From Prolixibacteraceae bacterium (GTDB lineage: Bacteria > Bacteroidota > Bacteroidia > Bacteroidales > Prolixibacteraceae): a stretch of DNA of 64,000 nucleotides. Shown here one piece after another: positions 59,806 to 63,722 of this stretch (positions are counted from its first letter, which is position 1; the number at the start of each line of letters is the position of its first letter). The DNA lies in the NCBI GenBank assembly GCA_019163175.1, contig JAFLKN010000056.1, forward strand, positions 1 to 64,000, read 5' to 3'. A model generated the notes under the pieces. That model ran no database searches and had not been told where the DNA came from. It saw nothing but the letters and a program-made list of their open reading frames with translations. The translations under genes and the position numbers were made by a program.

Positions 59806-59836
59806 TTTGTCTATTTTGAAAAACTATTTATGTTTG
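59806..59836 (+). promoter_or_regulatory. Bacteroidetes-type promoter of the methionine operon leader
   Basis: TTTG (59806-59809) - N19 - TATGTTTG (59829-59836). Confidence 0.65.
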
Positions 59837-59862
59837 CACTCAATTGCATCAGACAAATACAA

Positions 59863-59958
59863 ATGAATCATTCAGCAAAAAATATTACTCTTCCTGCTTC
59901 CCTACCAATGGGTTGTTGCAATGATTCTATGATGTCCATGTATATGATAATGCGCTAG
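59863..59958 (+). CDS. Un-annotated Met-rich leader peptide MNHSAKNITLPASLPMGCCNDSMMSMYMIMR*
   Basis: 31-codon ORF; 7 Met overall, 5 of the last 9 residues Met, plus Cys-Cys; starts about 26 nt after the -7 element; directly upstream of met genes. Confidence 0.7.
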   Translation: MNHSAKNITLPASLPMGCCNDSMMSMYMIMR

Positions 59959-59997
59959 CCTTCAAGCGGTGTGTTACTCATGTTGTTTTGAAGGCTA
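59956..59997 (+). promoter_or_regulatory. Leader hairpin overlapping the leader stop codon (candidate attenuator)
   Basis: TAGCCTTCAA (59956-59965) / TTGAAGGCTA (59988-59997), perfect 10 bp, 22-nt loop; the UAG stop is the first three nt of the 5' arm. Confidence 0.7.
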
Positions 59998-60043
59998 AAA
60001 CCAATCTGATTTTATTTCCAAATTAACTTTTTAAAATTTCATC

Positions 60044-61387
60044 ATGTCAAATTGTGTCGTACGATTTGGCGGAAACAGTTTGTCCAAATTTCCAATTCTC
60101 GAAGCTTTCGCCAATCTTTTGGCCGAATCAGGAAATAACGTGACCGTAGTAGTTTCTGCCATTCCAGAATTACAACAAACCATAGAACAAGGAATTGATC
60201 TGCTAATAAGCAATGCTGCAACTTCTGATCTGATCATTAGTAAGATAAACGAAATTTTGGCTCAAAAACTACTTGTATTTCAGCAGTCTGAGCTGGATGA
60301 AAACCTGAAGGCAGAGCGCGATAATCTACAAAACCTATTAAAAGGAATTGAGTTTACCGGCGACTTTTCATCAGCACTTAAAGATCAGGTAATCAGCTTT
60401 TCTGAACGTATTACAACTGCTATTCTGTATTTCTTTCTGAAGAAAAACCAGATTGACTCCAAACTTATATTTCCTGAAAACATCGACTTTTACGTGACCG
60501 AAGAATACGGAAATGCGACTTTTCTATATGAAGAATCAAACCGCTTAATCGATTTAATACCGGGTGGGATCACTCTGCTACCAGGCTCGTATGGAATTAC
60601 GTCGGGAGGAAAAATTGCCCGGCTCGGAAAACGTTCAGCCGATTATTCTGCTGCAGCCATAACACGGCTAACCGGCGCTGATAAACTGGAATTGTGGGAA
60701 CTTGATAAAGAATTTCGGACTTCCGATTCAGATTTCATCGCTGAATCCAAGCTTATTCCAAGGCTGACTTACGCTGAAGCATCAGAATTATCATATTTCA
60801 GCGAACTTTCCATACATCCGCGTATTGTTGAACCGCTTATCAGCAACCACATACCAATTCACGTTTTTCGGCTGAAAAACAAAGGGAAAGAATTGACTAC
60901 CATTATCAATTCCGAGTCGTTCGTTTCGCCAAACGTGGTCAAAAGCGTCGTACATACCGAAGAAATTGCCGTTCTAAAGCTTAATGGCCCAGGAGTTGGT
61001 TTTAAACCAGGTATTCTGGCTAAAGTAACCACGGCATTTCACCATTCGGCTATCAACATACGTTCGGTTATTACATCTCAGGTAAGCATCAACATTATCC
61101 TGAATAAAAATGAGATTGCGAAAGCGCGTGAAATCTGCAGTCAATTACCGCTAAGCTCTGTTAATGAAATTATTATTGAAGATCAGGTATCACTTATCGC
61201 AATTGTGGGGCACGGAATGCAGCAATATCATGGTGTTTCAGCCAAGCTGTTTACCGCAGTTGCTCAGCACAAAATCAATGTTTTACTAAGTGGTTCAGGC
61301 GCTTCAGACCTGGTAAGTTATCTTATCATTGATCAAAAGGACACCCGAAAAGCTATTACCGAAATACATCGGATATTTTTTAATTGA
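60044..61387 (+). CDS. Aspartate kinase-like protein with C-terminal ACT domains
   Basis: 447 aa; VVRFGGNSLSKF, VVVSAIPELQQ, LGKRSADYSAAAITRLTGADKLELW; ACT-like GFKPGILAKVTTAFHHSAINI. Confidence 0.85.
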   Translation: MSNCVVRFGGNSLSKFPILEAFANLLAESGNNVTVVVSAIPELQQTIEQGIDLLISNAATSDLIISKINEILAQKLLVFQQSELDENLKAERDNLQNLLKGIEFTGDFSSALKDQVISFSERITTAILYFFLKKNQIDSKLIFPENIDFYVTEEYGNATFLYEESNRLIDLIPGGITLLPGSYGITSGGKIARLGKRSADYSAAAITRLTGADKLELWELDKEFRTSDSDFIAESKLIPRLTYAEASELSYFSELSIHPRIVEPLISNHIPIHVFRLKNKGKELTTIINSESFVSPNVVKSVVHTEEIAVLKLNGPGVGFKPGILAKVTTAFHHSAINIRSVITSQVSINIILNKNEIAKAREICSQLPLSSVNEIIIEDQVSLIAIVGHGMQQYHGVSAKLFTAVAQHKINVLLSGSGASDLVSYLIIDQKDTRKAITEIHRIFFN

Positions 61388-61409: not shown

Positions 61410-62720
<1,311 letters not shown>

Positions 62721-62789: not shown

Positions 62790-63722
62790 ATGCCAATTAA
62801 TGTTCCTGATCAGCTGCCAGCTATTGAATTGCTGCAAAAAGAAAACATCTTCATTATGGACGAATCGCGGGCGTCGCACCAAGATATCCGTCCACTTAAG
62901 ATCATCATAGTCAATTTAATGCCTATTAAGATCACCACAGAAACCGATTTAATTCGCCTGCTGTCGAATTCACCGCTTCAGGTCGAAATTGATTTTCTTA
63001 GGATGAAAGGTCATGAGTCGAAGAATACGCCAGATGTTCACATGAAGGCATTCTATAAAACTTTCGATCAGCTGAAATCAAGAAATTATGATGGAATGAT
63101 TTTTACCGGAGCACCCGTGGAAATGCTTCCTTTCGATGAAGTTACATACTGGAAGGAATTGACAGAAATATTTGACTGGTCAAAGCGTCATGTTACATCT
63201 TCTCTCTTTATTTGTTGGGCAGCCCAGGCTGGTATGTATCATTTTTATGGCGTTCCAAAATATTTACTCAGTAAAAAAATGTTTGGGGTTTTCAAACACA
63301 GGAATTTAGACAATTCCCTACCGATCTTCAGGGGATTTGACGATGAATATTTTGTACCTCACTCCCGTCATACCGAGGTTTTGGAAGAGGATATTCTAAA
63401 AGCTCCTGAATTGAATATTGTATCTAAATCTGAAGAATCGGGTGTAAATATGGTAATGACCGAAGATGGCCGTCAGTTTTTTGTTACTGGTCATTCCGAA
63501 TATTCGAGGTATACGTTGGACACAGAGTATAAGCGGGATGTAAAGAAAAGCCTTCCGATTGAAATTCCGGACAATTATTACCCGGACAATAATCCGGAAA
63601 AAGAACCTTTAATGAGGTGGCGAGGACATGCCAATTTGTTTATATCCAACTGGTTGAACTATTACGTTTATCAAGCTACACCTTATAATCTGGATAATCT
63701 GTATCTGAATTTCGAAATTTGA
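62790..63722 (+). CDS. metA: Homoserine O-acyltransferase MetA (predicted acetyl-specific)
   Basis: 310 aa; MPINVPDQLPAIELLQKENIFIM, LNLMP-type IVNLMPIKITTETDLIRLL, TGAPVEMLPFDEVTYW, LFICWAAQAGMYHFYG. Confidence 0.95.
   Translation: MPINVPDQLPAIELLQKENIFIMDESRASHQDIRPLKIIIVNLMPIKITTETDLIRLLSNSPLQVEIDFLRMKGHESKNTPDVHMKAFYKTFDQLKSRNYDGMIFTGAPVEMLPFDEVTYWKELTEIFDWSKRHVTSSLFICWAAQAGMYHFYGVPKYLLSKKMFGVFKHRNLDNSLPIFRGFDDEYFVPHSRHTEVLEEDILKAPELNIVSKSEESGVNMVMTEDGRQFFVTGHSEYSRYTLDTEYKRDVKKSLPIEIPDNYYPDNNPEKEPLMRWRGHANLFISNWLNYYVYQATPYNLDNLYLNFEI

Follow-up and report, generated by a model that had tools for sequence, protein, structure and literature searches.

A conserved leader peptide that ends in methionine codons and is followed by a covarying hairpin precedes a methionine-pathway operon in the window, by which we mean the whole 64,000-nucleotide stretch of Prolixibacteraceae DNA that was analysed. 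We read this element as a ribosome-mediated attenuator that senses charged Met-tRNA, a reading to which sequence comparison leads us to give a probability of roughly 75%. In the proposed mechanism, a ribosome would translate the 31-codon leader. If methionine is plentiful, the ribosome would finish and depart, the hairpin (outer helix P1 and inner helix P2) would fold behind RNA polymerase and the operon would be off. If methionine is scarce, a ribosome stalled at the last Met codons would cover the 5' arm of P1, no hairpin would form and the aspartokinase-metY-metA operon would be on. The leader frame, Met codons, hairpin, spacing, promoter and operon are supported by comparison between relatives; the direction of the response, in which stalling means on, and the physical OFF step are what we infer.

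The amino acids sensed by textbook attenuators are His, Trp, Thr, Leu, Ile, Val and Phe, and methionine genes are said to be controlled by SAM riboswitches, T-boxes or MetJ. If our interpretation is true, a conserved leader that reads methionine would fill the methionine gap among attenuators and provide a further regulatory layer for Bacteroidota. It would also pose a puzzle, namely a leader that senses the very amino acid needed for its own translation start. Methionine starvation lowers initiation too, which is a point against a Met-reading leader.

Direct reading of the sequence reproduced the promoter, the 31-codon ORF and the hairpin at the positions given in the initial annotation (Table 1). 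The -33 TTTG box lies at 59806-59809 and is separated by a 19-nt spacer from the -7 box TATGTTTG at 59829-59836; transcription probably starts at about 59841-59844. Among 65 distinct sequences from relatives, 60 carry a TAnnTTTG box immediately 5' of the leader. The leader itself runs from an ATG at 59863 to a UAG at 59956-59958 and translates as MNHSAKNITLPASLPMGCCNDSMMSMYMIMR. An in-frame upstream ATG at 59830 was rejected as the leader start because it overlaps the promoter. The ATG of the aspartokinase at 60044 lies 85 nt past the leader stop, and the TIGR00657 score of this protein is barely above the cut-off. Aspartokinase, MetY and an acetyl-type MetA together provide flux through the homoserine pathway and homocysteine synthesis by direct sulfhydrylation. 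In 12 of 12 relatives checked, the aspartokinase orthologue is likewise followed by metY. Met leaders were also looked for at the two other aspartokinases of the source genome, and none was seen there. Elsewhere in the window, a cobalamin riboswitch is found at 2007-2197 on the minus strand (RF00174, 102.5 bits).

Table 1. Features of the methionine leader and its operon in the window.
Feature	Position	Strand	Basis
Promoter, Bacteroidota-type, TTTG-N19-TATGTTTG	59806..59836	+	Direct reading
Leader peptide ORF, 31 codons + UAG	59863..59958	+	Frame conservation
Putative regulatory Met codons, MMSMYMIMR	59929..59955	+	5 Met among last 9 codons
Hairpin, outer helix P1 + inner helix P2 + 5-nt loop	59956..59997	+	Pairing, covariation
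Spacer, G-poor, C/U-rich, candidate Rho-loading stretch	59998..60043	+	Inferred from composition
Aspartokinase, first gene of the operon	60044..61387	+	Pfam AA_kinase + ACT domains; TIGR00657
metY, O-acetylhomoserine sulfhydrylase	61416..62720	+	TIGR01326, 662.7 bits vs cut-off 495.1
metA, homoserine O-acetyltransferase type	62790..63722	+	NF047918, 488.4 bits vs cut-off 460.5

Most named relatives of the source genome in its family are Prolixibacteraceae. The comparison was made on the upstream regions of 70 orthologous aspartokinase genes from 16 genera of this family, whose proteins range in identity from 87% down to about 36%. The leader-hairpin element was present in 70/70 of the regions read, and the Met-rich ORF and covarying hairpin that the initial annotation suggested looking for in relatives were both recovered across the 65 distinct sequences. 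Across its final 29 codons, the leader frame is uninterrupted in 61/65 sequences, against 10 and 16 for the other two frames, and among the 60 relatives with a placeable start the leader is 28-37 codons long in 58. The last Met codon, at position -2 from the stop, is invariant (65/65), and the Met codon two before it, at -4, is kept in 63/65. Whereas these codons are conserved, the position separating them accepts almost any residue (I, C, F, S, T, R, A, D or Y), and the last leader residue also differs among relatives (R, Q, H, C or L). The combination of a conserved frame and Met codons with free neighbouring residues therefore argues for selection on the leader codons and not on the peptide. 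Within the genus of the source genome, leader indels comprise whole codons only and the mid-peptide sequence drifts, a pattern that fits a leader with a dispensable peptide product. Leader substitutions are 25% synonymous compared with 18% expected, a weakly informative difference. A special role for the Cys-Cys pair of the leader was not borne out, as the pair is not conserved.

These patterns also bear on an arrest peptide, in which the nascent chain would stall at the stop codon on a ligand, free Met or SAM, in the manner of TnaC and tryptophan. Such a peptide would account for the conserved C-terminus adjoining the stop, and its approximately 31 residues would fill the exit tunnel. We nevertheless consider an arrest peptide unlikely: the residues that separate or flank the Met codons are free to vary, those further upstream drift, and six lineages have lost the stop. 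The only conserved residue is Met, in keeping with codon reading.

The hairpin contains a perfect 10-bp inverted repeat (59956-59965 and 59988-59997), the first three bases of which are the leader UAG, and extends inward as an inner helix, with an MFE of -17.8 kcal/mol. P1, which consists of the G of the UAG plus CCUUC paired with GAAGGC, is paired in 65/65 distinct sequences. Its changes comprise one C-G to U-A at the second pair (L063), two C-G to U-A at the last pair and some wobble pairs. The sequence of P2 is highly variable, and 85% of its cells keep the pairing. Taken over the entire structure, covariation scored 0.262, against 0.146 ± 0.010 when shuffled (0 of 500 shuffles scored as high) and 0.128 for the best slid control. 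The structure was picked by eye on the same alignment, which biases the percentage paired in its favour. The safer figure is the number of cells with two-sided changes, 43 compared with 14.9 ± 2.9 in shuffles, though kinship alone can lift sequences above shuffles. Across families, the picture is one of a near-invariant P1 (UAGCCUUC/GAAGGC) and a covarying P2 within this family, and of unrelated stems in the others.

A covariance model built from the relatives (R1) gave one match in the source genome, with an E-value of 1.5e-16, the next having 0.26. Searching Rfam at gathering and relaxed thresholds yielded no credible match in the leader, the SAM families and T-box included. The leader ORF and hairpin are not a product of chance. 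AT-rich 5' regions often contain short ORFs and hairpins, though no result here favours chance; the conserved frame, Met codons, pairing and covariation, together with the single strong genomic match, refute it and leave its probability close to nil.

P1 is near-invariant although pairing alone needs less, so that an additional constraint must exist. This near-invariance would suit a hairpin that serves as the binding site of some protein, or as a small aptamer, with an incidental ORF. That explanation appears very improbable. Conservation of the hairpin goes along with that of the leader frame and Met codons; in other families the Met codons stay while the hairpin sequence is unrelated, and Rfam contains no match.

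The initial annotation had also observed that the UAG opens the hairpin. This holds in the window and in 58/65 sequences, and in the others the UAG is absent at that position. In one of the 65 distinct sequences the leader stops at a TGA one codon earlier, and six (L012, L015, L023, L067, L070 and L079) have lost the hairpin UAG, so that the frame enters the hairpin by a few codons and ends in the loop or the 3' arm. The proposal that the exact stop-codon position acts as a coupling device is thus not supported, the stop being lost in 6/65 sequences in which the Met codons are retained.

The spacing between the Met codons and the hairpin can be related to the footprint of a ribosome. In the alignment, the last Met codon occupies columns 25-27, beginning 6 nt before the stop, which lies at columns 31-33; the 5' arm of P1 spans columns 33-38. 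A stalled ribosome covers approximately 12 nt of mRNA downstream (PMC4833913). With the last Met codon in the A site, its front edge would reach columns 37-38, the end of the P1 5' arm, whereas with the preceding Met codon in that place the front edge falls short of the P1 5' arm. The invariant codon would thus be the position at which a stalled ribosome blocks P1. This geometry would explain both the fixed last Met codon and the fixed spacing.

For the OFF step, the observation that the hairpin lacks an immediate U-tract extends to the relatives: the first T4 run occurs a median of 21 nt past the stem and falls within 8 nt in only 5/65. An intrinsic terminator was rejected for want of an adjacent U-tract. 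Ordinary terminators, such as GCTCTTCTGACTTGTTGGAAGAGCTTT, do occur at some SAM switches of the order. RNAalifold and single-sequence folds revealed one conserved hairpin only and no alternative antiterminator pairing, and an antiterminator is not needed in Rho-linked or translational attenuators. Over the 45 nt past P1, C exceeds G in 59/65 sequences (mean 8.4 C and 2.8 G; p 2e-11), compared with 13% C and 14% G in the 60-nt stretches upstream of 31 other ORFs of the window. Since the RNA past the hairpin is C-rich and G-poor and a Rho gene is present in the source genome, Rho-dependent termination in this stretch is our first guess for the OFF step, a tentative one with a little less than an even chance of being right. 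Alternatives to Rho are hairpin-assisted pausing, other termination, and mRNA decay or translation control. In the last of these, the hairpin would act on translation of the operon or on decay of its message and not on transcription, and the stalled ribosome would protect or open the message. The lack of a U-tract and of a second terminator structure is in accordance with such control, but the hairpin is clear of the aspartokinase start, with a median gap of 54 nt, and we regard this explanation as rather doubtful.

The interpretation in the initial annotation is largely supported by the conserved promoter, frame and Met codons, the covarying hairpin and the position of the invariant last Met codon; the stop-position coupling and a special role of the Cys-Cys pair are not supported. 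It gains further weight from like Met-rich endings before other methionine genes. A search of 393 Bacteroidales genomes with R1 returned leaders ending in M-x-M-[RC]-stop before metY (L107, L108 and L112), metX (L116) and metH (L110), and a leader before metY that ends in M-S-M-stop (L111). The metY calls at these matches have tblastn support, and the names metX and metH are readings of translated starts. Most of these Met leaders outside the family have a hairpin of unrelated sequence directly past the stop, for example GUCUUCAGACGG..CCGUUUGAAGAC in L110 and UCGGAGAG..CUUUCCGA in L112. Some weaker R1 matches fall at unrelated loci and appear fortuitous. A DNA pattern for M-C-M-x-stop was uninformative, with scattered matches in 66/395 genomes of the class and few in the reversed control; we take these matches to be mostly background.

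Other endings were seen as well. Several leaders before metY (L176, L178, L161/L268 and L221) carry the motif H..(T)AWC(M) and not a Met run, for example SVHHHTAWCMDMHGEA-stop, and represent a second kind of sulfur leader. Endings in Cys runs (MCCCC, CCCCCCC) occur before metY or behind SAM aptamers (L159, L175, L253 and L271), and such leaders possibly read cysteine.

In two genera of the family, a SAM-I riboswitch precedes the same leader and hairpin (L084, L086, L089, L091 and L109). The aspartokinase leader of genus g8 (L089, L091 and L109) is short and rich in Thr, Ile or Asn, with one Met near its end, for example MITNNNTIRTNTSML-stop and MITMTTITRTSISML-stop; it may read threonine as well. 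The source genome itself holds a SAM-I aptamer at C22:54278-54453 on the minus strand (L095), followed 9 nt later by the leader ORF MKKQANLYFLSFMYFSNMCMC-stop, then by the hairpin GGAGAACAAA..TTGTTTTCTCC and a homocysteine-biosynthesis-like gene (MGIQKTYEEINEK...).

We examined 88 Bacteroidales SAM-I aptamers (L222-L308 and L095) for their downstream content only. The ATG of a short ORF follows 55 of them at 4-17 nt (mode 12-13) with no terminator detected. In 6/88, the ATG at a like distance is that of metH or metY itself, again with no terminator detected, and 13/88 have an intrinsic terminator. Fifty ORFs of 14-79 codons, picked solely by their position behind a SAM aptamer, contain 18.4% Met in their last ten codons compared with 1.3% before. 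Met occurs 92 times in these last ten codons, compared with 7.8 ± 2.8 times in shuffles and 3 times in each of the other two frames. Hairpins past the stop are less regular in this set (mean z -1.0; 21/50 below -1). Arg is also enriched in the last ten codons of SAM-aptamer leaders (13.2% against 3.7%), and the endings MRMR, RMR and MRGMR recur. In the wider class, 30 of the best-scoring aptamers were examined; a terminator follows 20 of them, and 3 precede a short ORF that shows no Met enrichment. Being a best-scoring set, their rates are not strictly comparable with those of the 88 from Bacteroidales.

These layouts may reflect a Bacteroidales-wide two-input switch, in which a terminator-less SAM-I aptamer would gate a Met-ending leader whose ribosome reads Met-tRNA, a proposal that we see as evenly poised between right and wrong. 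At the same even balance, the operon would be on only if SAM and charged Met-tRNA are both low, and the element in the window could equally be a version of the switch without the aptamer or not. Where an aptamer precedes the leader, SAM would additionally block leader translation; we suppose that it acts on the leader AUG because the distance from aptamer to AUG is the same as in the genes that the aptamer appears to control directly. If true, the aptamer-then-leader layout would be a natural logic gate built from a riboswitch and a ribosome sensor.

Comparing the element with known systems reveals a likeness to the trpL, hisL, thrL and ilv leaders of Proteobacteria, which also have a 5'-proximal short leader ORF, codons for the amino acid of the pathway towards the end of that ORF and a hairpin whose folding is set by ribosome position. 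In contrast to these, the element here concerns methionine, has a single hairpin, occurs in Bacteroidota and showed neither a U-tract terminator nor an antiterminator. With the alternative antiterminator and the intrinsic terminator both missing, we do not assign it to the trp/his type; it fits the wider class of leader-peptide controls. The SAM-I riboswitch (RF00162) controls genes of the same pathway and lies directly upstream of like leaders in many Bacteroidales, whereas the leader in the window has no SAM-I match. The Bacteroid-trp motif (RF01692; Weinberg et al. 2010, PMC2864571) is likewise a candidate cis-regulatory RNA of Bacteroidetes named for an amino-acid operon, but its name refers to tryptophan and it has no match in the leader of the window.

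Leader-peptide attenuation has been suspected in Flavobacterium psychrophilum (PMC9723704) and Bacteroides thetaiotaomicron (PMC7366714), and the passages found of the two main texts describe no methionine leaders. In the open-licence literature, we found no description of a methionine leader attenuator or of a SAM-aptamer-gated leader. Closest in idea are the cysteine-responsive poly-Cys short-ORF attenuators of mycobacteria (Canestrari et al. 2020, PMC8764745, cited in PMC13236596). In these, as is proposed here, codons for a sulfur amino acid within a short upstream ORF bring about attenuation of the downstream operon; they differ in reading Cys and not Met, in having leaderless ORFs and in belonging to Actinobacteria. 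Two of the Bacteroidales leaders behind SAM aptamers (L253 and L271) do end in Cys runs.
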